Source: Lentibacillus juripiscarius JCM 12147
GTDB lineage: Bacteria; Bacillota; Bacilli; Bacillales_D; Amphibacillaceae
Direction: 5' to 3'
Length of the DNA stretch: 18,679 bases
Assembly: GCA_001311805.1 (NCBI GenBank)
Contig: BBCA01000054.1
Location: 1-18,679, forward strand
The notes below the pieces were generated by a model that ran no database searches, was not told the DNA's origin, and saw nothing but the letters and a program-made list of their open reading frames with translations. Numbering within the stretch: the stretch's first letter is position 1; the number at the start of each line of letters is the position of its first letter. The position numbers and the translations under genes were made by a program. Below, one piece after another: positions 1-18,412 of this stretch.

Positions 1-153
1 GACTTTTCTTGTTTTCGCGCGAGTTTTCGGCCTGGGTCGCACGACTTTCTTGTTTTCGCGCGAGTTTTCGGCCTGGGTCGCGCGACTTTCTCGTTTTCGC
101 GCGAGTTTCGATCTGGGTCGCGCGACTTCTCGTTTTCGCGCGAGTTTTCGGCC
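1..153. repeat. Degenerate GC-rich tandem repeat, about 40-42 bp unit
   Basis: Three full units and a partial fourth begin at 1, 43, 84 and 124, each opening with GACTTT-like sequence and carrying TTTTCGCGCGAGTTTTCGG followed by CTGGGTCGC. Units shrink from 42 to 41 to 40 bp by single-base losses. Each unit holds the palindrome TCGCGCGA, and the unit junctions at 78-87 and 118-127 form the perfect palindrome GTCGCGCGAC. No credible reading frame is seen. The array runs off the left edge, so its copy number is unknown. It lies just beyond the terminator of the carnitine operon. Function unknown. Confidence 0.85.
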
Positions 154-181
154 AAAACTGCTGATAAGCCGCCACACTAAA

Positions 182-222
182 AAAGTTTCCCGAAAGCCGG
201 CGACCCGGTCGGGAAACTTTTA
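182..222 (-). terminator. Rho-independent terminator of the carnitine operon
   Basis: A 13-bp perfect inverted repeat has arms AAAAGTTTCCCGA (182-194) and its complement (210-222). The spacer holds a further CCGG/CCGG pair. Read on the minus strand the stem ends in a T run (181-185). The stop codon of the thioesterase gene (221-223) sits in the first arm, so translation and termination are directly abutted. Confidence 0.85.
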
Positions 223-703
223 GCTGGTTATTTTTTCGTCTAATTCCGATCACACGGCCGGCTTCTTTTGGTTTTTCTGCCGGGGAATGGCTTTCCGCAA
301 GTTCTTCAACCTTTCCAAACACATCGTCCGGAAATGGTGCAGCCCGACCGCTTTCCTGATCAACACCCATGAGCATCTGTTCACTCGTTGCAGCTCGTTT
401 GCCATTTTCGCCGAATAGCTCATAGAAAACATGGGCGCGTTTGGCGTCATAATCAATAATCTGCATATGGACCTCAAATGGTTCACCGAGTTTCATTTCG
501 TCAAGATAGCATACATGGCTTTCCATTGTATAAATGGTATACTTATGCTCATTCCGGAATTCGTCTGTAATGCCGATCATTTTCATGAACTGATCAACAC
601 CCCAGCTGAAAGCACGAACATATTCCGCATCATTCATATGTCCATTATAATCAATCCATTCTTCTGGCACCTCATGCTGGATAATTACTTTAGCGTTACT
701 CAT
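221..703 (-). CDS. cdhB: Hotdog-fold thioesterase, probable betainyl-CoA thioesterase
   Basis: This is an intact 160-residue frame starting MSNAKVIIQHEVPEEW and ending in GINEKITS. The segment WIDYNGHMND (16-25) is the N-terminal motif of 4-hydroxybenzoyl-CoA-thioesterase-like hotdog proteins, with Asp18 as the likely catalytic acid. An AAAGGAGG ribosome binding site precedes the ATG. In Pseudomonas and Sinorhizobium carnitine catabolism a thioesterase of this kind lies beside carnitine dehydrogenase and hydrolyses betainyl-CoA to glycine betaine and CoA. Here it is the last gene of the operon, about 35 bp after the dehydrogenase, which supports the same role. The hotdog fold is clear; the substrate is inferred from context. 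Confidence 0.85.
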
Positions 704-738
704 TCCAGTTCCTCCTTTCGCTCACCACCCGGGGAATC

Positions 739-1705
739 CTACAGCTTTCCTGACAGATTGGCGCCTGGCCAGTATTTCTCCAATAGCTGTTGGAGTTCAA
801 TTAAAACGCGTCCCGGCGCTCTTCCAGTTTTTCCATCTCTACATCACCAGTCTGCGCTTCACAGCCGGTCACGACTTTCTCCGATAGTTCATCGGTTAGT
901 TCCGGTGCTTCTAGTTTCGTCCATGGCAGTTTTAGGGCTGGGCCAAATTGTTCCAGGAGATGGCGCATACCCTGTTTCCCACCGCCCATATGCAAGGTCA
1001 TGAACGGTCCCATCAGTGCCCAGCGCAGCCCCGGTCCATAAACGATAGACGCATCGATTTCTTCGGTTGTTGCCGCTCCATCGTTCACGATGTGCAGCGA
1101 TTCGCGCCAGATTGCTTCCATCAGCCGGTCGGCAATATGGCCTTCAATTTCCTGACGAACCACGAGTGGTTTCATTTCCATTTGTTCGTAAAATTGTCTT
1201 GCCTTTTCCACAAATGGTCATCCGTTTTTTCTCCGCCAACGAGCTCAACAAGTGGCATAAGGTAAACAGGGTTAAACGGATGCGCAACAATCACACGTTC
1301 CGGATGATACGCACAATCTGCCTGCAGTGTGCTAGGTAAAATACCAGATGTACTGGAAGCAATGACTGCTTCTTGCGGTGCGTGCTTATCAATTGACGCA
1401 ATCACACCACGCTTTAATTGCTCGCGCTCAGGAACATTTTCTTGAATGAAGTCGGCTTCAGCCAATGCCTTTTCCAAGTCAGGTTCAAACGAAAGATTAT
1501 CCTGGGAAGCCCCTTCTGCTAATCCCATTTTTTCCATAGATGGCCACGCACGTTCTACCGCGTCACGTGTGCGTGCCTCCGCTTCTGGATCAGGGTCCGA
1601 CGCTACTACTCGGAAGCCGTTTGCTAAAAATCGTGTAATCCAACCGTTGCCGATAACGCCTGTCCCTACAACGGTCACTTGGGTAATCGATGATGCTGCT
1701 GTCAT
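739..1705 (-). CDS. cdhA: L-carnitine 3-dehydrogenase (two apparent frameshifts)
   Basis: NAD-dependent 3-hydroxyacyl-CoA-dehydrogenase-like enzyme expected to oxidise L-carnitine to 3-dehydrocarnitine. The N-terminus has the Rossmann motif VVGTGVIGNGW (12-22), followed by SSTSG (117-121) and the AHPFNP motif with likely catalytic His142. The C-terminal helical domain contains GPGLRWALMGPF and GGGKQGM, typical of carnitine dehydrogenases. The ATG at 1705 has an AGGAAG site inside the end of the BKACE gene. Near 1215 the frame breaks and resumes at VEKARQFYEQ, consistent with one lost base. Near 801-806 an early stop follows LEERRDA; restoring one base gives LIELQQLLEKYWPGA and a stop at 739-741, for about 322 residues, the usual family length. 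The family call is strong. That the breaks are sequencing errors is inferred. Confidence 0.85.
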
Positions 1706-1706
1706 G

Positions 1707-2600
1707 TTAGTCTTCCTTTCTGTATGGGTTTAGTAAATTTAGTTCTTCCCGTGCTTCTGCCGGTGTCATGATGTCCGATCCAAGTGTTTCAACAATGCCA
1801 GCAGCCTTGTCTACGAGCTGTTCGTTTGTTGCCAGTTGACCTTTCTTCAAGTACAGGTTGTCCTCAAGGCCGACACGGATATTACCGCCTTGCAATATGG
1901 ATTCGGCAACAATTGGCATTTGCATCCGGCCGATTCCGAACGCTGCCCAACGACCGTTTTCTGGGATACGGCTCTTCAAGTAAGCCAAAGTCTCTGCATC
2001 AGCTGCTGCGCCCCAAGGAATACCCAGGCAGAATTGAAACAGCGGATCGCCATCAATTAATCCTTCTTTCACGAGCTGATTCGCAAAACGCACATGGCCC
2101 GTGTCAAAACATTCCAGTTCCGGCTTAACGCCGCTTTCCTGAACAAGTTTTGCTTGTCTCCGGAGCCAGTCTGTCGGGCTGACATACAGCATATTGCCAA
2201 AGTTGGTACTACCGCAGTCCAGCGTGCACATTTCCGGGAGAAGCTCGCCAACCGGCTCATGACGCTCTTCCGGTGTCTGCATATCCGTTCCTTCGCCGCC
2301 TCTAGTTGGATCTTCATCACTCGGAACCCAGTCACCGCCGCCGCCTGAAGTGATATTAATAATCACATCTGTGTCAGCTTCACGGATTCGCTCCACTGTC
2401 TCACGAAACAGGTTTACATCATGGCTCAGCTGACCTGTCTTCGGATCACGCGCATGAATGTGGGCAATCGTAGCCCCTGCTTTAGCTGCTTTAATGGCCG
2501 AATCTGCTATCTCTTTCGGTGTTACCGGAACATCCGGGTTTTTAGACGTCGTATCTCCTGCTCCCGTCAATGCTGCTGAAAGAATTACCTTTTTACTCAT
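1707..2600 (-). CDS. cdhC: BKACE (DUF849) 3-keto-acid cleavage enzyme, probable dehydrocarnitine cleavage
   Basis: Intact 297-residue TIM-barrel enzyme of the beta-keto acid cleavage family. Family members condense a 3-keto acid with acetyl-CoA and split off acetoacetate. Visible hallmarks are the zinc-binding HxH in ATIAHIHARD (His47, His49), NITSGGGGD, ELECFDTGHV and the late motif NIRVGLEDNLY, whose Glu (about 246) is the third metal ligand. I chose the start at MSKKVILSAALTG because GGAGGAG lies 7 bases upstream; a longer frame runs upstream but overlaps the regulator gene. It begins inside the last 8 bases of the gbsR-like gene and ends 1 base before the dehydrogenase ATG, so the genes are translationally coupled. 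With 3-dehydrocarnitine as substrate the products would be acetoacetate and betainyl-CoA, which the thioesterase then hydrolyses. The substrate is inferred from the neighbours. Confidence 0.88.
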   Translation of the reverse strand: MSKKVILSAALTGAGDTTSKNPDVPVTPKEIADSAIKAAKAGATIAHIHARDPKTGQLSHDVNLFRETVERIREADTDVIINITSGGGGDWVPSDEDPTRGGEGTDMQTPEERHEPVGELLPEMCTLDCGSTNFGNMLYVSPTDWLRRQAKLVQESGVKPELECFDTGHVRFANQLVKEGLIDGDPLFQFCLGIPWGAAADAETLAYLKSRIPENGRWAAFGIGRMQMPIVAESILQGGNIRVGLEDNLYLKKGQLATNEQLVDKAAGIVETLGSDIMTPAEAREELNLLNPYRKED

Positions 2601-3150
2601 TTGAATCTCCTCCTGTCCGTTGTTTTGGTACATGCTCAAATATTTCACCGCTCTCAAAAAAGTGCGTTACACGGCGTATCCAATCATAGTATTCTGTCCA
2701 TTCATGAAGCTCGGCCAACAGTTCATTGATGGCCTGTTCATTTTCCTCCGTTATGTCCGGCTGCTGCTGAAGCTCATCAAGTTTCTTCTTCAGGCGCTGT
2801 TCAAAGTGACGACTCCGGTTGATGGCCTTTTGCCAAGTGGATGTAAAAAGTGAGATGAAAGTCTGGTAATAATCTTCTTCCACCTGGTACAGATCTTTCC
2901 GGACACCTTTCTTGAAAACACGTTCCGCGATATTCATATCAATCATTTCCCGGACAACCTGGCTCATCCGTGTTTTGCTCATTCCGGTTTCGGCTGACAA
3001 TTCATCCAGCGTCATCGCCTCCCGGTTCATGTAAATAATTCCGAGAACACGGCCGACACTTGTCGCAGCCCCAAAGGCACTCATATTATCTGTTATTTTC
3101 TCAATGAATTGCGTTCTGACATCATCAATTCGTTCAGTATTGTTAACCAT
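2593..3150 (-). CDS. GbsR/OpcR-type (MarR-fold) osmolyte regulator
   Basis: Intact 185-residue DNA-binding protein. TSVGRVLGIIYMNREAMTL leads into a winged helix-turn-helix with recognition region SAETGMSKTRMSQVVREM (about 52-69). A coiled helical stretch follows (about 105-150), then YYDWIRRVTHFFESGEIF, the C-terminal signature of Bacillus GbsR/OpcR proteins. Those repress choline uptake and glycine betaine synthesis genes and respond to choline. I chose the ATG at 3150 because AAGGTGG lies 5-6 bases upstream; a GTG seven codons earlier is possible. The gene overlaps the BKACE gene by 8 bases. By position it probably controls this carnitine module, with carnitine or a derivative as candidate effector; that is inference. 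Confidence 0.85.
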   Translation of the reverse strand: MVNNTERIDDVRTQFIEKITDNMSAFGAATSVGRVLGIIYMNREAMTLDELSAETGMSKTRMSQVVREMIDMNIAERVFKKGVRKDLYQVEEDYYQTFISLFTSTWQKAINRSRHFEQRLKKKLDELQQQPDITEENEQAINELLAELHEWTEYYDWIRRVTHFFESGEIFEHVPKQRTGGDSNE

Positions 3151-3285
3151 TTCAGCCACCTTTTTCAACACCCTTTTCCAACCATTTTGACTGCACCCGT
3201 ATCACACCATTTTTCCAGAATGAAACTGCCTGTCACTTTATATATCAAATAATTTAGCGAAAACAGGCGTATATTAAATGCGAAT
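3151..3285. other. Leader region of the gbsR-like operon, no gene
   Basis: This A/T-rich stretch between the operator-like word and the regulator ATG has no coding frame and no terminator hairpin that I can see. Transcription may start here, but reading through from the esterase gene cannot be excluded. Confidence 0.4.
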
Positions 3286-3298
3286 GTTGATAAAGTTT
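3286..3298 (-). promoter_or_regulatory. Candidate operator in front of the gbsR-like gene
   Basis: The minus strand reads AAACTTTATCAAC here. It matches AAAGTTTATGAAC, found twice in front of opuCA, at 11 of 13 positions. It sits about 135 bp upstream of the regulator ATG, between the esterase stop (3310) and the regulator, just upstream of A/T-rich TTTAATATA-like sequence. I cannot place a convincing sigma-A promoter. A GbsR-type autoregulatory site is an inference. Confidence 0.4.
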
Positions 3299-3309
3299 AC
3301 GTTGTATAA

Positions 3310-4979
3310 TCAGAGCTCTGCAAGTGGAAGTATAATTTTTGAGTTCATTTCACCGCCCTGATGAACATACTCAGCATCGGTTTTTCCTTCACTATGTGTT
3401 TTGGTGGTCGTCCCATTGTTCAGATTGATATCGTAATGCGGGGCATTGCTTGCAGCTATATCCAACCGTATACAATGACCTTTTCGGACGAGATATGCTG
3501 TTGTTCCAATATCCAATTCCAGACAGACTTGTGTACCGGCATCCACTTTTTCCCGATGGAATGTATCCACGATATTATACGCCCGGCCAAATTCATCTAC
3601 ATCCGATATACGAATAGATACATCGAGCAATTCAGATGACGAACTCCCCCATATAACAGCTTTAACAGTACCAAACAGCTTACAGTCTTCACTGATAGGT
3701 TCACTAGTATAAACGAGCACATCTGACCTGTCCTGTATATGACTCACATCAAACATTCCTGATTCATTCCCGGCTATCAATACATTCCCGCCATATGCAG
3801 GAACAGGATTTTTGGATCCAATTTCATCGCACTTTTGTTTCATTTGGAGTTAACTCTGTACTCAGTTTTCCATCACCGTGAATAGTTTGTGAATTTCCAC
3901 TGCTGTGTAGAAATAAATCCATCATTGCGGCCGGTTCTGGCCATTCATTAAAGGCATTCCACATTTCCTGTCCCATCATATATAGATGAACGTTTTTTCA
4001 ATAGAAAGTGGCTTTCCTTTCAGCCAATGATTGAACCAACGGATGTGTAAATCTGTCGGATCCGCAATTTCATCAACACCTATTTTCTTTTTAGCATGAT
4101 CAAAAACACTTCCCCGGCACGACCGGTCATCTCTTCATGTGTCCATGGGCCAATCCAGAGCATATTTGGACCGTTATATGCATGAAAGGCTTCCAGTGTT
4201 GGCTTCAGTAGAGCATCAAACCATCCGCCCATAAACAGCGCCGGCACCGAAATAGAGTGTAATGCCCGATGTAATTTTGTCTTTTCCATCCACCAGTCAG
4301 GCAATGTCCCTTTCATTACATCGAAGAAAAACGAATCTGGATCAAGATCTTTCATTGGATACCATTCATCAGCGGGGGCGTGATATAGCCATTTACTCAG
4401 CTCTTCTAAATAACGATGAAATTTATCGGTTTCATCCAAATTCCCCTTCCGCTTCAGCTGGTCCTCAACAATGGAACCCAACACCCATGTTTCAAATTCA
4501 CCTGTTGCATGTGGGCTGTTTTCCCCACCAAGAATATCTCCCCATGGATCGGCCATTGTCATGACAGGCGCAATGGCCTTCAGAGATGGTGGTTTTTCCG
4601 CCGCGGCAGCCAATTGCGTATATCCGTGATAGGACATGCCGAACAACCCAACATTCCCATCGGAAAATGGTAGTTCAGCTGCCCATTCAACTGCTTCATA
4701 GCCATCCTTACCCTCATGTATAAAAGGGTAAAAGTCGCCGTCAGAAGCAAATCGGCCCCGTACATCCTGCAGTATCACCACGTATCCCGCTTCTACCATC
4801 CGCGGGACGTCCAAATACTCGTCGTAATAGCGCGGGGTTTCCTTGTCATACGGAAGACGCAGCATCAACACTGGATACCTTTGTCCATCATCAGGACGAT
4901 ATACGTCTGAACGAAGAACGACTCCGTCCGAAAGTGTGCAGGGAATATTCTTCTCTTTTATTATCCCGTTTCCGTGCAT
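3310..4979 (-). CDS. CocE/NonD-family alpha/beta hydrolase (several apparent frameshifts)
   Basis: Serine esterase or acylase of the CocE/X-Pro dipeptidyl-peptidase S15 family. Residues 1-290 form the hydrolase domain: LSDGVVLRSDVYRP, ILQDVRGRFASDG, nucleophile Ser116 in FGMSYHG, Asp255 in GGWFDALLKP and His281 in GPWTHEE. After that the frame breaks at an A5 run (4102-4106), a T6 run (3993-3998) and A/T runs near 3833-3836 and 3809-3813. Restoring one base at each gives LHIRWFNHWLKGKPL, then VPAYGGN and the C-terminal jelly-roll domain (DVLVYTSEPI, GTTAYLVRKGHCIRLDIAASN), about 557 residues in all. It follows opuCD by 82 bp. Pseudomonas carnitine clusters carry an acylcarnitine hydrolase, so hydrolysis of carnitine or other quaternary-amine esters is a fair hypothesis. 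Family certain, substrate unknown. Confidence 0.82.
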
Positions 4980-4996
4980 CTACATCACTCCCATTG

Positions 4997-5049
4997 CCGG
5001 CCAGCATCCCTATAGACCTGGGGGCATAACCAGGTCAAGGTGCTGCCGG
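4997..5049 (-). other. Strong intercistronic hairpin between opuCD and the esterase
   Basis: Nested inverted repeats fill the 82-bp gap. The inner stem is GACCTGG (5015-5021) with CCAGGTC (5030-5036) around an 8-base loop. The outer stem pairs AGCA with TGCT and CCGG (4997-5000) with CCGG (5046-5049). There is no T run on either side, so a simple terminator is unlikely. A GGGAG ribosome binding site for the esterase follows directly. It may stabilise or process the mRNA, or tune expression of the esterase. Confidence 0.55.
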
Positions 5050-5061
5050 GTTATACCACTT

Positions 5062-5706
5062 CTAGGATTTAGCCGGCTGTAACCTGCGCTCAATCCAGCC
5101 CATAATCAAATCAGCAATGATAGCCATCAGTGCTGTTGGAATTGCACCTGCCAGAATGATTGGTGTTCCATCCGTTGCATTCGTACCCGTTAAAATGATG
5201 GCACCAAGACCACCTGCACCAACGAATGCACCAATCGCGGCAATACCGATTCCAATGACTAATGCCGTTCTTAAGCCAGCCATAATAACACTGACTGCCA
5301 GCGGAAGTTCGACCATTCGCAATAACTGGAATTTAGTCATTCCCGAGGCATAGCCCGCTTCAATGACAGTGTTATCCACATCCTTCATACCGACATAGGT
5401 ATTTTGCATAATAGGCAGTATTGAGTAAAGCATAAGCGTTACAATAGCAGTATTCGTACCGAGCCCCATAACAATCATGATAGCCGCCATCGCTCCTAGT
5501 GCCGGAATCGTTTGAATAATGCTTCCAAACGCCAACATCCAACTGCTCAACTTACTGTATTTGGCAATTAAAATACCAAGGGGGATGGAAATGATAGCCG
5601 CAAACAGCACTCCGTATGCCGCCATCAGAAAATGCCTATAAAACTGTGTCCAAATATAGAAGCCGTTTTGACTGACATAGTGAATGAATTCCTGCATTGC
5701 TTCCAT
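5062..5706 (-). CDS. opuCD: Glycine betaine/carnitine/choline ABC transporter permease OpuCD
   Basis: Intact 214-residue inner-membrane permease with five to six hydrophobic segments. It carries the binding-protein-dependent transport EAA region: DNTVIEAGYASGMTKFQLL followed by VELPLAVSVIMAGLR, which contacts the ATPase. The GIGIAAIGAFVGAGGLG stretch is typical of the OpuC/ProW branch. I chose the ATG at 5706 because AAGGGGGG lies 7-8 bases upstream, overlapping the end of opuCC by a few bases; upstream ATGs lie inside opuCC. It is the second permease of the four-gene importer. Confidence 0.93.
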   Translation of the reverse strand: MEAMQEFIHYVSQNGFYIWTQFYRHFLMAAYGVLFAAIISIPLGILIAKYSKLSSWMLAFGSIIQTIPALGAMAAIMIVMGLGTNTAIVTLMLYSILPIMQNTYVGMKDVDNTVIEAGYASGMTKFQLLRMVELPLAVSVIMAGLRTALVIGIGIAAIGAFVGAGGLGAIILTGTNATDGTPIILAGAIPTALMAIIADLIMGWIERRLQPAKS

Positions 5707-5707
5707 G

Positions 5708-6634
5708 TTATTGTCCCCCCTTTCCTGCATCCTCAAAGTAGTCATTCTTTTCCAAGAACTGTTTGGCAACTTTTCGTGGGTTCGTTAGCTTAACATCTGC
5801 CTTATAATTTAGCTCCTGCATTTTTTCTGTGGATATCTGACCCGCAAGCCGTTCTGTAATAGATTTTATTTCGGGGTATTTTTTCAGAATATCATTCGCT
5901 ATAACAGGAGAAGCATCGTAAGGTGGGAAGAATTGTTTTGTATCTTCCAGCACTTTTAAATCGAACTCCTTAATTCTTCCATCAGAAGAGTAAGCAAGTA
6001 CAACATCCATATGACCGCTAGCAGCTGCTTGATATACCAAGCCAACGTTCATCGGAAAAACTTCCCCAAAACTGAAATAGGCTTCTTTGAATCCTTCATA
6101 GCCGTCTCCTTCGCGATTTATCCAGGCATTATCAACGCCAAAACGCAGTTCATCAGCATAAGGTTTCAAGTCGGATATAGTTTCAATATTATTTTTTCGC
6201 AAATTCTTGCCTAACGGCCACCGAATAACTGTTTTCAAAGCCATATGTCGGCGCCCATGTTTGATCAAAACGTTCTTGGAATTCTCGTTTTACGATTTTC
6301 AATGCTTTCTCTGGATCTGTAATTGGATCCATGCCGAGTGCGCCGGATATATCTGTCCCGGTATAGCGTGTACTTGATATATCAATGTCACCACGCTGCA
6401 TACCCTGATGCTGGACAATGGATGATCCGAGATGTGTTACGAGATCAGTATCCGCATCTGTCTCTCGCTCAATCATAATAGATAGCATTTCCGCCAAGAT
6501 TTCAGATTCTGATGTGGCAAGTGCACTAATTTTAATTGTTTCCTTTCCTGTACTTGCCAGCCCGGGCAAGGAACAACCGGAAAGCATTATCATCACGACG
6601 AATATGAGGATTGCTTTTTTCATTATTTTTTCAC
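5708..6634 (-). CDS. opuCC: OpuCC-type substrate-binding lipoprotein (frameshifted)
   Basis: Extracellular osmolyte-binding lipoprotein of the importer. The signal peptide ends in a lipobox, MIMLSGCSLPG. Conserved OpuC segments include HLGSSIVQHQGM, GDIDISSTRYTGTD, LRFGVDNAWINREGDGYEGF, VVLAYSSDGRIKEFDLKVL and FFPPYDASPVI. The frame stops after VRQEFAKK at an A6 run (6192-6197) and resumes as NNIETISDLKPYA; two missing A residues restore an alignment equal in length to Bacillus OpuCC. The start is uncertain. The best-spaced start is GTG at 6634, 9 bases after GGAGGTG, but it needs one more base in the A6 run at 6626-6631; ATG at 6623 or 6650 needs no change. Corrected length is about 309 residues. 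Confidence 0.87.
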
Positions 6635-6652
6635 GAGTTGTCACCTCCATTA

Positions 6653-7296
6653 TTATGCTGCCTCCTGCGAGTCCTTCATTCCATCAGACGTAAGACTTCT
6701 TTCCAGTATCGCAAACGAACGGTCCGCAATCACAGCCAAAATAGTCGCTGGGATGGTTCCTGCCAAGATTAATGATGGCTTGTACAGATTCAGCCCATCA
6801 AAAATAAAATCACCAAGACCGCCGCCACCGATAAATGCTGCCAGTGCCGCCCAGCCAATCAAATAGACGGTTGACAGCCGAATGCCGGCCATGATAACGG
6901 GAATAGACAGTGGCAATTCCATTTTATAATCGTTTGCCAGTTGCTCATTCCCATGCCTTTTCCTGCTTCAATCACCCCTTTATCAACATCACGTATGCCA
7001 ATATAGGTGTTACGCAAAATCGGCAGCAGTGAATAAACAAACAAGGCAATAATTGCTGGCGCTTTCCCAACTCCCATAATGGGGATGAAGAATGCAAGAA
7101 TTGCCAAGCTTGGGATTGTTTGTAAAATACCAATGAACGAAATAAAGCGGTCGGCAAATTTTGGAACCCTTGAAAGCATGATGCCAAGAGGTACAGCAAC
7201 AATTACCCCAAGTACCATAGCCGCAACCGAAATATAAAGATGTTCCCATGTTTTAACCATCAGTTCATTTCCATGTGTAGATAAAAATTCCATCAT
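6653..7296 (-). CDS. opuCB: Glycine betaine/carnitine/choline ABC transporter permease OpuCB (frameshifted)
   Basis: Inner-membrane permease, about 214 residues after correction, close to Bacillus OpuCB. Visible are HLYISVAAMVLGVIVAVPLG, IGILQTIPSLAILAFFIP and the EAA loop DKGVIEAGKGMGMSNWQTI. The frame then breaks at an A4 run (6922-6925) and continues as MELPLSIPVIMAGIR and AAFIGGGGLGDFIFDGL. One extra A restores the junction KMELPL. The ATG at 7296 has GGAGGTGACGGACG directly upstream. It is 13 bp downstream of opuCA. Confidence 0.9.
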
Positions 7297-7309
7297 CGTC
7301 CGTCACCTC

Positions 7310-8463
7310 CTATTCTGCTGTGGCTGCCACTTCGTCAAGCTCCATGCCATCGCCCCAGATTGTGTCATAAACAAGGTTTGCCAGTGTTGCACGGGTGACA
7401 ATTCCTGTCAGCTGGTGAGCTTCATTGACGACAGGGACATATTTAATGCCACGGCGAAGAATTTTATGAACTGTATCACGCAGCAAACTTCCCTCATCCA
7501 CAGAGAAAATATCTGCTTCCATTACTTCCTCAACATGATTCGCTTTTTTGTAATTCAGATTAATAGACTCGATATCTATAAAACCTTTCAGTGTATGGTC
7601 AGAATTAACAACCAGAAGGGAATCAACGTGCTTGTCCTTCATCGTAGATATCGCTTCTTTCAACGTTGTGCCAGTTTTCACAGTAACTGGGCAGCCTCCC
7701 ATGATCTGTCCAACCGTTGTTACATCGGGACGGCCTTGAATGAGCCGGTCTTTACCAAGAAACTCCTCAACGAATTCGTTTGCCGGATTCCGCAGTATTT
7801 CGTCCGGCGTATCTGCCTGAACAACTTCACCATCGCGCATGATAACAACCCGGTCAGCCAGTTTCAGCGCTTCATCCATGTCATGAGTGACGAACACAAT
7901 TGTTTTATCCAATTCCTTCTGCAGCTTTTTGAACTCTTCCTGCAGGGAGTCTCTTGTAATTGGGTCAAGCGCCCCAAACGGTTCATCCATCAGAATCAAA
8001 GGCGGATTTGATGCAAGTGCACGAAGCACGCCAATCCGCTGCTGCTGGCCACCACTTAACTCGTGCGGATATTTATCAAGATATTCTTCTGGCATATCAA
8101 CCAATTTCAGCAATTCGCGAGCTCGCTGTTCTTTCTTTTCTTTTGGCCATTTCAGTAATGTGCCAACCAATACGATATTTTCCTTAATTGTCATATGCGG
8201 CATCAGCCCAATTTGCTGAATGACATAACCGATGGAACGGCGAAGTTCAACCGGATTCTGATCTTTAATGCTTTTATCATCAAATCGTATATCGCCGTCC
8301 GTTATATCAATCAGCCGGTTCACCATTTCATTGTTGTTGTTTTCCCGCAGCCACTTGGACCGATAAAACAAACAAATTCACCCTTTTCTATTTTCAAATC
8401 AAGGTTCTTGACGGCGGGTGTTCCGTCAGCATACCGTTTTGTCACATTATTAAACTCTAACAA
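7310..8463 (-). CDS. opuCA: OpuCA-type ABC transporter ATPase with two CBS domains (frameshifted)
   Basis: Cytoplasmic ATPase driving osmolyte import, about 384 residues after correction. It shows Walker A GPSGCGKTTT, the Q-loop region YVIQQIGLMPHMTI, signature LSGGQQQRIG, Walker B LILMDEPFGALD and H-loop FVTHD. The C-terminal third holds two CBS repeats (TVGQIMGGCPVTV and VEEVMEADIFSVDEGS), which in OpuA/OpuC ATPases act in ionic-strength or nucleotide sensing. Just after Walker A the frame breaks at an A3 run (8325-8327); one more A gives TTTMKMVNRLID. I chose the TTG at 8463 because GGAGG lies 9 bases upstream and the protein then begins MLEFNNVTKRY. First gene of the operon. Confidence 0.92.
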
Positions 8464-8546
8464 TGCCCGACACCTCCATAAGTTCTTTCGTCTCAATCGC
8501 TTTCTCAAGTATAAAGAAATAGGCGTACAAACAAAACTAGCATTTC

Positions 8547-8612
8547 AGTTCATAAACTTTTAAAAATCCATACATTTTTTATTGTATAAAGTTCATAAAC
8601 TTTATATCGCAA
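8547..8612 (-). promoter_or_regulatory. opuCA promoter region with two operator-like palindromes
   Basis: The 14-base word AGTTCATAAACTTT occurs twice on the plus strand, at 8547-8560 and 8590-8603, 43 bp apart. The second copy extends to the palindrome AAAGTTcataAACTTT (8588-8603). On the minus strand a possible sigma-A promoter is TTGCGA (8612-8607), an 18-base spacer and TATACA (8588-8583), so the palindrome fills the spacer and the second copy lies about 25-35 bases downstream. This is a classic repressor layout. The likely ligand is the GbsR-type protein encoded at 2593-3150, by inference. Confidence 0.55.
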
Positions 8613-8682
8613 GATTCCTTCAAAATACTACAAATTCATACCCTATCCGACATATGAAAGCGGATTCATCAAGTTTTAATAA

Positions 8683-8727
8683 AAAAAGTTCCCGATTTGC
8701 TTTACGCAGCTTAATCGGGAACTTTTT
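8683..8727 (-). terminator. Rho-independent terminator after the MMPL exporter gene
   Basis: A 15-bp perfect inverted repeat has arms AAAAAGTTCCCGATT (8683-8697) and its complement (8713-8727), with a 15-base loop. On the minus strand it begins 6 bases after the exporter stop codon and ends in a run of seven T residues (8681-8687). It separates the exporter from the opuC operon. Confidence 0.92.
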
Positions 8728-8733
8728 AGAAGA

Positions 8734-10880
8734 CTATTTAAACCGGGCTGGCCAGAAGCTCCATTTTCCGAGTTTCATAATAATGGCCGGCGTCAAAACG
8801 GTCCGGACGAGGAATGTATCAATCAGGACACCGACTGCCACAACAAATCCGAACATAAACAGTTCCATAATAGGCTGTGTCGTCAGTACTGCAAACGTTG
8901 CGGCAAGAATCAAGCCCGCGGATGAGATAACACCACCCGTTTTGCAATCCCCTGCTGGACAGCCGTCTTCAAAGGATGGGTCCGATGTGCTTCCTGTATC
9001 CGTGACACCAGCATAATATTGTAATCAACACCAAGTGCAACTAGAAAGACAAATGCATAGAGTGGAATGCGATAGCTCATTTGAGCATAGCCGAACACAT
9101 TCTGGAATATAAAATCAGAAAATCCTAGCGCCGCCCCATAGGACAACAGGATGGTCACCATCATATAGATTGGTGCAATTACCGACCGTGCCTGAAAACC
9201 GAGCATAATGGTAATAAGCACGACTACCAGCGTTACGACAACCGCTGTGTCCCGGTTGCTCCACTCGCGCGTATCAAGGTTTACAGCCGTTTCTCCTGCA
9301 AAATATAGCTGACTGTTGTCTGTGTCAAACCCACTTTCCTCCAGTAGGGTTTCTTTATCTTTCCGCAAATTCTGCATCGCGTCAAATGCTTCATGCGTAT
9401 ACGGATTTTTGGAAAAGGTCAGCTCCAATTGAGCTGCCTGCTCGTCACTGGACAAGAAATTATGCTCATTAACACGAACGGCATGGACCAGTTTCTCGTC
9501 CTTCAGCTTAGATCCCAGTTTTATCCACATTATCTTTCTCAATTGTGTTTTCTGACGTAACCAGAACGGTTGTTGGTGCCACTTCACCTGGATTATATTT
9601 CGACTCAATCAGCTCAAAGCCTTCCCGTGACGTCATGTCTTCCGGAAATGACTGAAGCAGATTATAGGAGTAACCAATCTGGGCCGCATTAGCTGATAGA
9701 ACCAGCAGCACCACGAGCACACTTCCACCCGTAACAAGTGGTTTTTTCGTGACTTCCTGACTGATCCGGTTCCAGATTGTATTTGTTTTTACTTTCGTTT
9801 CTTCTCCTGCGCGCGGGATGGACGGCCAGAACGCTCTTCTGCCGAATAATGTAAACAGGGCAGGGACAAGTGTCAGACCCGCCAGCAAAATAATGACCAT
9901 AGCTACCGAGAAAACTGGTGCAAAATGCCGATATGGCTCAAAAACCGCGGCTGCAAGCGTCAGTACCGCCACCAGCACCGTTCCCCCACTGAAGAAGATG
10001 GGTCTGCCCACCTGGCTCATGGCCCGCTGCATTGCTTCATATTTACTCTCCACTTCCCAAAGTTCTTCCCGGAATCGAGAAAATATAAAAAGTGAATAGT
10101 CCGTAATTGCCGCAAACAAAAGAATCATCATAATCGACAATGATTGGCTATCAATGGAAAACCAATTATTCTCCCCAGCGATCCCGATTGTCCGGTTGAC
10201 CACTTCATAAACAATACCGGAAGCCAGAAGCGGAATCAGTGCCAGCAGCGGTGAACGGTAAATGACAACCAGCAATACGAGAATCAGACCAATTGTTGAA
10301 AATAGTAAAACCATATCCCCGTTGGAAAACAATTCAAGGGCATCAGAAGCAATCCCTGCTGGTCCTGTCACGGCGACATCGATCGTTTCCGGAAGACTCT
10401 CCTGCATCGCCTCTTCCATATCAACTACCATATCATTAACCGTATCCATTTCCAGTCCTTCTTTCAGATGAACCGGAAATACAAGTGTGGTTTCATCATC
10501 GGAAAGAAACGACTTTTGCGCCTTCGTATCCATTTGATTAAACGGCAGCACGGCCTTCATTCCATCTGTCACTTCCGCCGGCAAGTCATGCAAAGACTCG
10601 ACACTCGAACCTACCGCCGACAAGGACTCTTCATCAAAGCCCGACTCCTGATGAAACACAAGGATGGCAGGCATAACATCACTATTTTCAAATTGTTCTT
10701 CAAGTTCCTTATCGGCAATCACTGACGGTGCATCGTCCGGAAGACCTGCACCACTGGAATTAGCAGCAAAGTCTTTGGCACTTGATGCAGTGAAACTTAG
10801 CACCAGTACGATAGCCAACCAGACCGTTAATGTAATCGTCATTCCTTTTTACTGGCAATCCACCGAAAAATATGACTCAT
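8734..10880 (-). CDS. MMPL/RND-family exporter, YdfJ-like (frameshifted)
   Basis: Large inner-membrane exporter, about 716 residues after correction, with the twofold RND-like layout. Each half has one N-terminal helix, an extracellular domain and a helix cluster. Visible helix blocks include DMVLLFSTIGLILVLLVVIY, MMILLFAAITDYSLFIFSRF and the second-half equivalent VFLVALGVDYNIMLVSRI. The TDYSLF/VDYNIM pairs are the MMPL proton-relay region. I chose ATG at 10880 because GGAGGG lies 6 bases upstream; the frame MSHIFRWIASKK then breaks at an A5 run (10846-10850) and resumes at GMTITLTVW. Further breaks lie at 9519-9522 (A4, after EKDNVDK) and 8940-8943 (A4, before TGGVISSAG). MMPL proteins export lipids, siderophores or toxic compounds; the cargo here is unknown, but the upstream HssRS-like pair suggests haem or membrane stress. 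Confidence 0.85.
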
Positions 10881-10898
10881 GTTGAACCCTCCTGCTTA

Positions 10899-10950
10899 AA
10901 TATACTCACCAAATCCCAAGTTAAACCTGAAAAGTGAACAGAGGATGAAC
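10899..10950 (-). promoter_or_regulatory. HssR-box-like direct repeat and activator-type promoter before the exporter
   Basis: The minus strand reads GTTCATCCT, CT, then GTTCACTTT (10950-10931). This is two 9-base direct half-sites spaced by two bases, the same architecture as the HssR site of the Staphylococcus hrtAB promoter (GTTCATATT, two bases, GTTCATATT). Downstream is TATATT (10904-10899) as a possible -10, but no recognisable -35, as expected for an activator-dependent promoter. It lies 8 bp after the kinase stop codon and about 50-70 bp before the exporter ATG. Confidence 0.6.
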
Positions 10951-10957
10951 AATAAGT

Positions 10958-12329
10958 TTACAATGCCGGCAGTGTCACGGTGAATATGGTTCCTTCGCCT
11001 GGCCGGCTTTCAACGGCAATATTACCATCATGCATCGTAATCACCTGCTGCACAATTGACAAACCAAGTCCCGTCCCTTCTGTTGTGCGTGTCCGTGCCT
11101 GATCCGCCCGGTAAAATCGGTCAAATATGTGTTCACGCTCTTCTGCTGTCAGGCCAATTCCGGTATCATGAACAGCAACAGCTACTTTCTCTCCCGTATG
11201 CTGCACCGTTAAGTCAATTGTGCCAGCCGTCCGGTTATATTTTATCGCGTTCGTAAATAAGTTCTCCCAAACTGTATAAAGCATCGATGCATTTCCATAA
11301 ACTTTGCATCATCTAACGAATAGCTGACCGTCAGCCCTTTATCATCCAATAGCCAGCGGTATTTTTGAACAATTTCTTTCAGTTGTTCTGCCACATGAAC
11401 CGGCTCTTTCCTGTATATATGATTTTCCCGGTCAAGGAACTCAACACGAGCAGCTGATTGGTCAATGAGGACAGACGACGCGTCTCATCCTGGATGATCC
11501 CGGTATAATGGGCTTTTTCCTCATTTGTCAGCTCATTGCTCTCCAGCAGCCGCGCATACCCTTGAATATTCAAGAGCGGGGATTGAATGTCGTGGGAAAC
11601 ATTCGAAATAAATGATTTTCGCATCATATCAAGTTCACCGAGCCGATGCGTCATTTCATTAAAACGGTCGGCAAGCTTCCCTATCTCATCCTCCCGGTTA
11701 ATGGACAGGGTGACATCAAAATGTTCATCCCCTACCTTTCCCGTTGCTTCGGACAATTCTTTAATAGGGTTGACGAGCATTCGTGCGCCGATGAGAACAC
11801 TAATAATGCTAAGGACAACCATGACTGCTATCATCCAGCCAAGCAACGTGTGCACCTCACTGAACAACAGCTTAATATTCGGGCGCATAAATAATGCATA
11901 TTGTTCGCCGTCATTTTCAAAAGGAACACCAACCGTGTTCGATAGTTCATTTGCAAAAAAGCCAGTCACAAATGTCTCCCGCGGAAATTCCCTCATGCCA
12001 TGATACACATCGCCATCAAGAACCTGTTTAATCACATTGGATGCGATCGTTTTATCGCGAAATTCCCCGCCGTAAAACTGTTCAGAACCAGACTCACTAA
12101 TGACATAAAGCTGATACCCGGTGTCGGCTGTTTGCTCCATGTACGCAACCGGGTCCTCCTGCGTTTCCGCAAAAGCAGCCACCTCTTTGGCAATTTCCAT
12201 ATTTTTGTAATCGTTCTCTTCCTTCACTTTCTGGTGGTAATACGTATTCGCAAACAAGAATCCGACTACCGTACTAAACACCATAATGACAACCGTAATA
12301 AGGACAAACTTGGAATATAATGTTTTCAT
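10958..12329 (-). CDS. hssS: HssS-like haem-stress sensor histidine kinase (frameshifted)
   Basis: Membrane sensor kinase, about 457 residues after correction, close to staphylococcal HssS. It has helix 1 (7-28), an extracellular domain (29-161), helix 2 (162-183), HAMP, a HisKA domain with His246 in NVSHDIQSPLLNIQGY, and an ATPase domain (NLFTNAIKYNR, DTGIGL, GTGLGLSIVQQVI). The extracellular part resembles HssS in detail: QFYGGEFRD, VFVTGFF-like TFVTGFFANELSNTVGV and ALFMRPNIKLLFSEV. The frame breaks near 11432 (before DRENHIYRKEPV) and near 11295 (before NASMLYTVWENL); one missing G at each repairs both. Its ATG overlaps the regulator stop by 4 bases. Haem as signal is inferred from the HssS resemblance. 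Confidence 0.83.
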
Positions 12330-17263: not shown

Positions 17264-18412
17264 CTACTCCTGCGTTTCACAAAGCATTTTAATGATTCTT
17301 TCTTCTGGAAATCCCGTTGTTTCTGCAATCAGTCTCACTTCCATGCCTGCTGCTATAAGCTTACTGGCAATGGCTTCTTTGGCATTTTCCTCTCCCTTTT
17401 CTATCCCCTGCTCCATACCTTGCTCTATACCCTGCTTTATACCTTCTTTTTTGCCTTCCTTTTGCCTTCTTTTTTACCTTCCTTTCTCCCTTTTTCCAGG
17501 CCTTCTTTTTCCGCTGCTTGTATTCGAAGTTCTGCCTCTCGCTGGGCAGCTTCCTCATCTATTATTCGTTTTAAACGAGATTCATAAGCCAAATATTGTT
17601 CTTGCGTCATACTTAATTCTTCCCAGCTTTGGAAAGCACTGCGCAATGACTCATCCTTCATGGCTATCTCCTCCAGCTCTTGGTAAATTTTACCATAAAC
17701 CTCATCTTTTCTATGATCGACCATACCAAGCAGCATCAGCCACCTGGCCAACACATCATTCCATGGATCCAATTTATCGTCTTTCCAATCCTTTATTAAC
17801 TTGGGCATTTCGACGAAGTGTAATTCCATCACATCTGACAACATGAATTCTTCCTCATCTTCATACAAATGATAGGTTGTATGAAAGTGATCTGTTTGGT
17901 GAAACAAATTAAAATTGAGGATATTAATCGCAATAACCGGTCTCAGCTCACTATACGTCATCTTCTTTTTAAATGGCCCCCGGTATGCCCCTGACCAATA
18001 GTATATCGAGCGTTTTTACCATATCATATTGATTGGTGAATTGTATTTCCACATTAATCCGTTCGCCGGCATTCGTAATGACCAGTAAATCTGGCCTCGA
18101 CTGTTTATCCTCCGCATGTTCACCGCCCGATTCTATATTCAAGAATGAAATATCTTTAATTTGATTCCGGCCGGTTTTCTGAAGTAAAGCGTTTAAAAAT
18201 ACAATGGTGATATTTTTGTTCTTCTCATTTCCAAAAAGCTGCTTAAAAGCATAATCAACCTTTAAATCCATTAATCGCTCAAGTGATACCCGTTTTAAAA
18301 TTTTTCCTGATTCTCTCTTAGGTACCTTCTGATAGTCAGTGGGGTCTTCCATTACGGTCTTCCGTGCAAAGTAATTTGAGGATTGTTCACAAACGACTGT
18401 ATTTAGTGGCAT
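17264..18412 (-). CDS. Rpn-family recombination-promoting nuclease/putative transposase (two indels)
   Basis: PD-(D/E)XK-type nuclease, about 382 residues after correction. The N-terminus MPLNTVVCEQSSNYFARKTV leads to LERLMDLKVDYAFKQLFG, SRPDLLVITNAGERINVEIQ (Asp and Glu-x-Gln of the nuclease core) and TNQYDMV. The frame then shifts at an A5 run (18013-18017); one A fewer gives KRSIYYWSGAYRG. MTYSELRPVIAINILNFNLF and PWNDVLARWLMLLG follow. The tail is a Lys/Glu/Gln-Gly repeat (17395-17505) broken by a second indel at 17460-17463, then IASKLIAAGMEVRLIAETTG. The ATG at 18412 has AAAGGA 9 bases upstream. Members cleave DNA and promote RecA-independent recombination, and are often multicopy and mobile-looking. 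Confidence 0.83.

Follow-up and report, generated by a model that had tools for sequence, protein, structure and literature searches.

The stretch of DNA analysed here, referred to as the window, is 18,679 nucleotides of Lentibacillus juripiscarius JCM 12147 (contig BBCA01000054.1). Between about 233 and 8463 its minus strand carries opuCA, opuCB, opuCC, opuCD, cocE, a GbsR-type regulator, BKACE, L-carnitine dehydrogenase (CDH) and a hotdog thioesterase of the 4HBT_2 family (TE), in that order. As a whole, the cluster is probably an osmolyte operon of a Lentibacillus-like halophile, which would turn carnitine into glycine betaine under an OpcR-type regulator.

In the proposed mechanism the enzyme activities, the ester substrate, the inducer and the repression itself are predicted ones. 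OpuCABCD would import carnitine and its acyl esters, and a cytoplasmic CocE-type esterase would free carnitine from the esters. Next, CDH would oxidise carnitine to 3-dehydrocarnitine, BKACE would convert this product and acetyl-CoA to betainyl-CoA and acetoacetate, and TE would release glycine betaine. Carnitine may in this way feed both osmoprotection and carbon metabolism. The repressor, encoded within the unit, would bind an A/T-rich near-palindrome upstream of opuCA, and in several relatives a further site facing the regulator's own operon. It would be released by carnitine or by a pathway intermediate.

The features of the locus are as follows.

7310-8463, minus strand: opuCA, ATPase with CBS domains (TIGR01186 proV, 444.7 bits, cut-off 326.6; CBS match); frame broken near 8323-8386, tblastn pieces in two frames.
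6653-7296, minus strand: opuCB, permease (tblastn against opuCB of the Lentibacillus locus L002, 80% and 78%, in two frames); frame broken near 6886-6961.
5708-6650, minus strand: opuCC, substrate-binding protein (PF04069); frame broken near 6193.
5062-5706, minus strand: opuCD, permease, intact (PF00528; tblastn 83%).
3310-4979, minus strand: cocE, alpha/beta hydrolase of the CocE/NonD family (TIGR00976, 220.1 and 99.6 bits in two pieces, cut-off 66.3; Peptidase_S15 and PepX_C); three frame shifts by eye.
2593-3171, minus strand: MarR-like regulator of GbsR/OpcR type, intact (MarR_2, 27.5 bits; CudC model, 144.6 bits, cut-off 218; tree).
1707-2600, minus strand: BKACE, intact (PF05853, 340.7 bits; alignment to solved family members).
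739-1705, minus strand: CDH (PRK07066, 190.6 and 181.3 bits in two pieces, whole-protein cut-off 414; three tblastn pieces against L002); breaks near 1184-1214 and near 804.
233-703, minus strand: TE (PF13279, 117.1 bits; positions 346-489 of the 495 of PRK07531; tblastn 78% over 157 residues); expected stop missing.
8570-8595, no strand assigned: OpcR-type operator-like site upstream of opuCA (score 18.5 with a matrix built from opuC-only sites).

Frame calls, profile matches and tblastn bear out what the first-pass annotation of this DNA had claimed, namely these nine genes in this order, all on one strand. Its statement that the genes overlap from the regulator onward was too strong. The regulator and BKACE do overlap (BKACE ATG at 2600, regulator stop at 2593-2595) and are the only such pair, since BKACE and CDH are one base apart and CDH and TE about 35. 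The first GTG of the regulator is at 3171, and its homology to L002 begins near 3147.

The gene content, the linkage, the operator motif and its co-occurrence with the regulator rest on comparison with relatives. The relative loci are the best 80 of 569 confirmed BKACE relatives and for this reason lean to close kin. A search for the same gene order, as the first-pass annotation had suggested, finds it in Salinibacillus, Oceanobacillus and Salimicrobium, and in Lentibacillus without cocE. Nine of the 80 loci have the co-directional order opuC-(cocE)-regulator-BKACE-CDH-TE. In ten others (cocE)-opuC is divergent from regulator-BKACE-CDH-TE, one of which (L047) ends after BKACE. The cocE gene is present in 15 of these 19 loci. 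A chance arrangement is ruled out because the order is kept in relatives. The gene identities and the conserved order support the joining of a carnitine-to-betaine module to an OpuC importer, as first proposed.

A regulator of the window's type is the next gene upstream of BKACE on the same strand in 23 of the 80 loci, at distances from overlapping to 421 bases. Nineteen of these loci have an adjoining opuC, two have BCCT carriers and two an OpuA-type importer. A different regulator, a TetR-like protein (defined as at least 60 bits to the L036 protein; TetR_C_28 is present in the three scanned), is found nearby in 49 loci; in the 48 for which the distance was taken, it is no more than 3.8 kb away from BKACE. 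Both kinds occur in L022, where the GbsR-like gene is about 4 kb away and scores 100 bits; eight loci have neither. One locus, L067, has no BKACE frame in the set of open reading frames and was omitted from the BKACE tree and from the TetR distances.

The BKACE tree, built by a quick method with SH-aLRT support only, contains 79 loci and the window and falls into two sides with support of 96 each. One side holds 24 rows of the window's regulator type, six with neither regulator and the solitary TetR-flanked copy L001; the other holds 47 TetR-type rows and two with neither. Two changes of regulator type suffice on this tree. A second sample comprised 249 genomes of the order, with BKACE scored at E up to 1e-60. 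BKACE is present in 32 of them; among the regulator matches listed for these, 11 genomes have a window-type regulator within 200 bp, 19 a TetR within 5 kb, none both and two neither. That two lineages carry one pathway under unrelated regulators, each with a different palindrome, makes a clean natural case of regulator exchange.

The window BKACE is 96% identical to one from Lentibacillus sp. CBA3610. This is a second, solitary BKACE of that strain (L001, 9900-10933), which is nearer to the window BKACE than is the strain's operon copy in L002 (92%). The DNA match of L001 extends about 100 bases into the end of the window regulator and about 50 into the start of the window CDH, with a TetR gene upstream. 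The copy looks like a displaced fragment of a window-type module.

The window regulator is classed as OpcR-type because of its kinship and its opuC context. It is 94% identical to a homologue in Lentibacillus lipolyticus. The best-scoring homologues that are not beside BKACE were fetched from 20 genomes. Nineteen adjoin opuC-like genes and one (L106) adjoins a BCCT gene; two of the genomes (G239 and G231) carry BKACE elsewhere. Weaker homologues lie beside opuA or genes of unassigned context. In 14 regions around such weaker matches, seven regulators are opuA-linked and none is gbsAB-linked, and the regulator fragment of L137 was not recovered as a frame. In four loci (L126, L127, L129 and L135) the GbsR-like gene recurs downstream of open frames of about 990 and 410 amino acids, a setting of unassigned function.

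A tree of 53 regulators, which contains no gbsAB-linked GbsR, separates the opuA-linked set with support of 100/100. The carnitine-linked rows (24) and the opuC-only rows (21) are mixed together, with three changes needed. The positions of the ligand cage are those listed for GbsR and OpuAR in PMC6207618, one of several papers drawn on here in excerpt, and were placed by alignment with opuA-linked rows rather than with OpuAR itself. At these positions the window has Tyr101, Tyr102, Thr104, Phe105, Leu108 and Phe109, of which four of six are aromatic, and most opuC-only members have the same letters. The all-Phe cage of GbsR is not matched (Y Y T F L F in the window compared with F F F F F F; PMC6207618), and no choline-oxidation gene was found among the window frames scanned.

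The first-pass annotation held that a GbsR relative had been recruited to a non-choline route. A GbsR-family regulator is indeed attached to the carnitine module and shares an operator motif with its kin, yet its source appears to be an opuC-linked OpcR type and not choline control. A choline-type GbsR identity is unsupported, given that the score against the CudC choline-regulator model (NF047500) misses the cut-off and that 19 of 20 homologues flank opuC. Since the nearest kin outside carnitine clusters are opuC-linked and OpcR-type, the regulator was most likely recruited along with opuC, and not out of choline-to-betaine control.

Upstream of opuCA, loci of the window's arrangement carry the near-palindrome TATACAAT-N4-ATTGTATA. 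Counted with at most two mismatches, this pattern, which was read off the same opuCA upstream regions, occurs at 12 positions in 1.634 Mb. Eight of these, among them the window's own, precede opuCA in loci arranged in this way. As a rough control, the reversed sequences give three positions. The window copy (8569-8588) has two mismatches and overlaps the 8570-8595 site; the copies in L010 and L016 have three and five mismatches.

A 26-position matrix was trained on 15 opuC-only sites, from loci with no carnitine gene within the fetched 10-16 kb. These remain from the 20 loci fetched around regulator homologues after L106, L117, L118 and L123, which are not in the matrix step, and L109 (best site with 12 mismatches), which was dropped. 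The 30 best positions of the matrix in the 80 loci are all upstream of opuCA, the regulator or BKACE, and all in the window's BKACE clade. Regulator-bearing loci account for 27 of them, and the other three are in L011 and L014, where no regulator was detected in the set of open reading frames. The 31st (L037, score 19.4) is the first outside those upstream regions of the window clade. All 23 regulator-bearing loci have a position scoring at least 12.5, and elsewhere there are three (L037 twice, L014 once). Several divergent loci, such as L035, L047 and L071, carry two sites facing opposite ways. The intergenic region of L050 is shortened by an over-long frame (best score -4.1), and a full scan finds its site at 35.1; the sites of L050 and L006 overlap over-long frame starts.

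In the window, the next non-overlapping site after that at 8570-8595 scores 3.6. None of 200 dinucleotide shuffles of 8464-8760 reaches 18.5, the maximum being 9.5. By the matrix, then, an operator-like motif is common to opuC-only loci and to carnitine loci of the window's type. This shared motif and the positional linkage support putative joint control of the importer and the carnitine genes.

The TetR-type loci carry a different palindrome. TATACCGTCCGGACGGTATA-like sequences occur at 55 positions with at most four mismatches, in 36 of the 80 loci (35 of the 49 TetR loci, and L027), a count that is descriptive because the pattern was read from the same loci. They sit upstream or at the start of the TetR or BKACE gene, for instance at 9037 and 9899 in L037, and none is found at this threshold in the 23 window-type loci. 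The palindrome is probably the operator of the TetR-type regulator.

Aligned to 2y7d and 3c6c, BKACE shows the HxH motif and the late Glu typical of its family, as the first-pass annotation had described. These residues are presumably metal ligands. The protein passes no equivalog cut-off. The best model for CDH is PRK07066. The fused carnitine 3-dehydrogenase PRK07531 has two parts, one matched by CDH and the other, C-terminal, one by TE. The importer has the four-gene OpuC layout (ATPase with CBS, permease, binding protein, permease) with an OpuCC-like binding protein. An intact orthologue of opuCC, in L007, matches OpuCC (3ppn) with 377.5 bits. Both this orthologue and the window piece have Thr at the position of the Asp of OpuBC, a replacement that we take to be meaningful for broad specificity.

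The cocE gene, to which the first-pass annotation gave no role, is tied to the carnitine module in two lineages. Homologues occur in 33 of the 80 loci: 15 of the 19 with a window-type regulator and opuC, 17 of the 22 with TetR and OpuA, and L011. An ABC importer is adjacent in 46 loci, of which 32 have a homologue, against one of the 34 others (Fisher p 3e-10, phylogeny ignored); L001, L022 and L080, all three with a distant OpuAC-like frame, are placed among the others. Among the 249 genomes, cocE (E up to 1e-60) is found in 16, and 11 of these belong to the 32 that carry BKACE (Fisher p 8e-8, again ignoring phylogeny). In nine of these 11 it is within 5 kb of BKACE, by distances taken by hand. 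More distant homologues also occur in genomes of the family.

In a CocE tree of 45 rows, made by the quick method, the 38 module- or OpuA-linked rows form one clade (98) that spans both regulator lineages. This clade has 36 different sequences, because L149 duplicates L032 and L150 duplicates L028. The seven unlinked rows, from five genomes without a BKACE match, fall outside. The assignment to the CocE/NonD family rests on the TIGR00976 cut-off, which is passed, and on the presence of the Ser-Asp-His triad. The Ser, Asp, His and Tyr columns that align with catalytic residues of cocaine esterase are kept in all 38 clade members, where they presumably have the same roles. No signal peptide is evident by eye, so ester substrates would need to be imported first. 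Eight columns separate the clade from the outside rows (for example Phe124, Trp207 and His322 in L007 numbering); so small and so phylogenetic a set does not identify a substrate.

The cdhCAB genes of Pseudomonas aeruginosa are taken here to encode BKACE, the dehydrogenase and the thioesterase. The operon that contains them, caiX-cdhCAB-hocS, ends in the acylcarnitine hydrolase gene hocS, and resembles the window in uniting a binding protein, the carnitine-to-betaine enzymes and a hydrolase (PMC5806209, in excerpt). It differs in being governed by the AraC-type CdhR and GbdR, where the window has a MarR-like OpcR-type regulator. The hydrolases also differ, that of the window being CocE-family and likened to HocS by function, and the window's importer is a full OpuC ABC system. 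In Bacillus subtilis, OpuC imports acetyl- and octanoylcarnitine, and esterases free carnitine from acetylcarnitine (a review, PMC5979481, in excerpt). From these activities, and from the place of hocS in the Pseudomonas operon, we infer by analogy that CocE is an acylcarnitine esterase, a functional counterpart of HocS.

Several other systems share parts of the arrangement. In Staphylococcus xylosus, opuCABCD is near the L-carnitine dehydrogenase gene lcdH, a closeness shared with the window, and the pair is proposed to make betaine under salt; a salted-meat table lists, in its first column, increases of 24.8- and 22.8-fold for opuC and lcdH (PMC4742526, PMC5620643, excerpts). The loci of its relatives S. 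equorum and S. pseudoxylosus (L078, L079), unlike the window, have a TetR-type regulator beside BKACE and no cocE near. The OpcR/opuC and GbsR/gbsAB systems of B. subtilis resemble the window in the type of repressor, a GbsR-family protein by opuC, in an A/T-rich inverted-repeat operator and in a mostly aromatic cage, whereas the window's unit includes carnitine enzymes, unlike OpcR/opuC (PMC6207618, PMC7396694). A quaternary-amine island of SAR11 also has BKACE, CDH and ABC importer genes together. Unlike the window, it has a gamma-butyrobetaine dioxygenase and a choline dehydrogenase, and the excerpts drawn on mention no GbsR-type regulator (PMC12421898).

Prior knowledge covers OpuC import, the CDH-BKACE-TE route and the control of opuC by GbsR-family proteins, and OpuC with CDH has been proposed in print to supply betaine under salt in S. 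xylosus (PMC4742526, PMC5620643). What the sequence comparison adds is a putative extension of the OpcR-type regulon to carnitine genes, the split between two regulators and a candidate esterase. A literature search, mostly outside subscription papers and partly in excerpts, found neither an OpcR-type regulator nor a CocE enzyme in carnitine operons, and no paper was found on CocE with carnitine and esterase. The excerpts drawn on for S. xylosus, Lentibacillus CBA3610 (PMC8220782) and Acinetobacter (PMC6562126) likewise give no link of OpcR or CocE to carnitine. In the main text seen of PMC6207618, carnitine appears only in the BCCT name and a reference, and in that of PMC7396694 it does not appear.

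These additions allow a wider proposal, which is tentative and stands a little short of an even chance. In it, OpcR-type repressors would sense carnitine or acylcarnitine, the CocE clade beside ABC osmolyte importers would be a so far unassigned acylcarnitine esterase of Bacillaceae, and one OpcR-controlled unit would import carnitine, de-esterify it and convert it to betaine. If true, this would give a concrete candidate class of inducer for an osmostress repressor, OpcR, of which PMC7396694 (in excerpt) states that no physiologically relevant inducer is known. It would also give a candidate gene for acylcarnitine de-esterification outside Pseudomonas.

Several observations count against a carnitine-sensing osmolyte operon in the window. 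The regulator tree does not separate carnitine-linked from opuC-only members, and the two sets share their cage letters, so no sequence feature singles out carnitine as the ligand. The operator-like site precedes the opuCA start by 107-132 bases. Upstream of the window regulator the best matrix score is 1.7, too low for a strong second site; an internal operator is not claimed there, and control of the downstream genes would for this reason rest on read-through or on a weaker site. The three Lentibacillus relative loci with the order (L002-L004) do without cocE, and many operon frames are broken in the window record. Finally, CDH of the window's lineage is under the curated carnitine-dehydrogenase cut-off of 414 (376.8 for the intact L007 protein), whereas that of L036, from the TetR lineage, passes with 419.3. 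This shortfall, like the failure of BKACE to pass an equivalog cut-off, would suit a module that acts on a carnitine analogue, some other beta-hydroxy onium acid. Such a substrate is improbable, as CDH and TE each correspond to one part of the fused carnitine 3-dehydrogenase and the binding protein of the importer resembles OpuCC. A stronger alternative, though still an unlikely one, is ordinary carnitine catabolism for carbon, its acetoacetate and betaine entering central metabolism, with OpuC merely the available importer and osmoprotection secondary. Many loci have the same enzymes with BCCT carriers or no recognised carrier nearby, and these loci are mostly TetR-regulated with their own palindrome, as expected for substrate-induced catabolism. 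The regulator and motif of the window's lineage are, however, of the kind that other genomes have at opuC alone, and S. xylosus shows a joint increase of opuC and lcdH in salted meat (PMC4742526, in excerpt).

It is quite possible, if less probable than an acylcarnitine substrate, that CocE acts on another betaine ester such as acylcholine, or on an unrelated ester, and that its linkage mirrors the importer and not carnitine. The concentration of cocE at loci with an adjacent ABC importer fits this, as do two TetR-lineage clade members (L147 and L148) that adjoin OpuA-type importers with BKACE on another contig. Against it, the clade members in the 249-genome sample all come from BKACE genomes, and the outside rows come from genomes without a BKACE match. 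The remaining alternative, a decaying pseudogene cluster, is suggested by the six of nine frames that are broken in the window record (opuCD, the regulator and BKACE are whole). With intact relatives as queries, tblastn finds opuCA, opuCB and opuCC split over two frames each, CDH over three and cocE over two, although four cocE pieces are seen by eye; TE lacks a stop where one is expected. In L007 these genes have open frames, and so do those of L002, where cocE is absent. Decay is very improbable: unrelated neighbouring genes are broken as well, identity to intact relatives is about 70-90% outside the breaks, except in the second cocE piece (48%, spanning a shift), and the operator-like site is present.

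Sequencing error is the likelier cause of the broken frames, because genes for an MMPL-family transporter and a histidine kinase at 8737-12329 are also split into several frames and because several breaks, by eye, are in or beside single-base runs.

Rfam gives nothing at gathering scores in the whole window, and nothing at E up to 0.5 in 1-9000. Downstream of TE, a hairpin at about 180-220 resembles an operon terminator by eye, and just past it, at 5-153, is a CGCGCGA-rich tandem repeat with a period of 41, 3.7 copies and 91% matches. At the other end of the window, the frame at 17969-18559 matches a transposase of the PD-(D/E)XK nuclease family, with a neighbouring frame at 17437-17961 and short repeats at 17400-17510.

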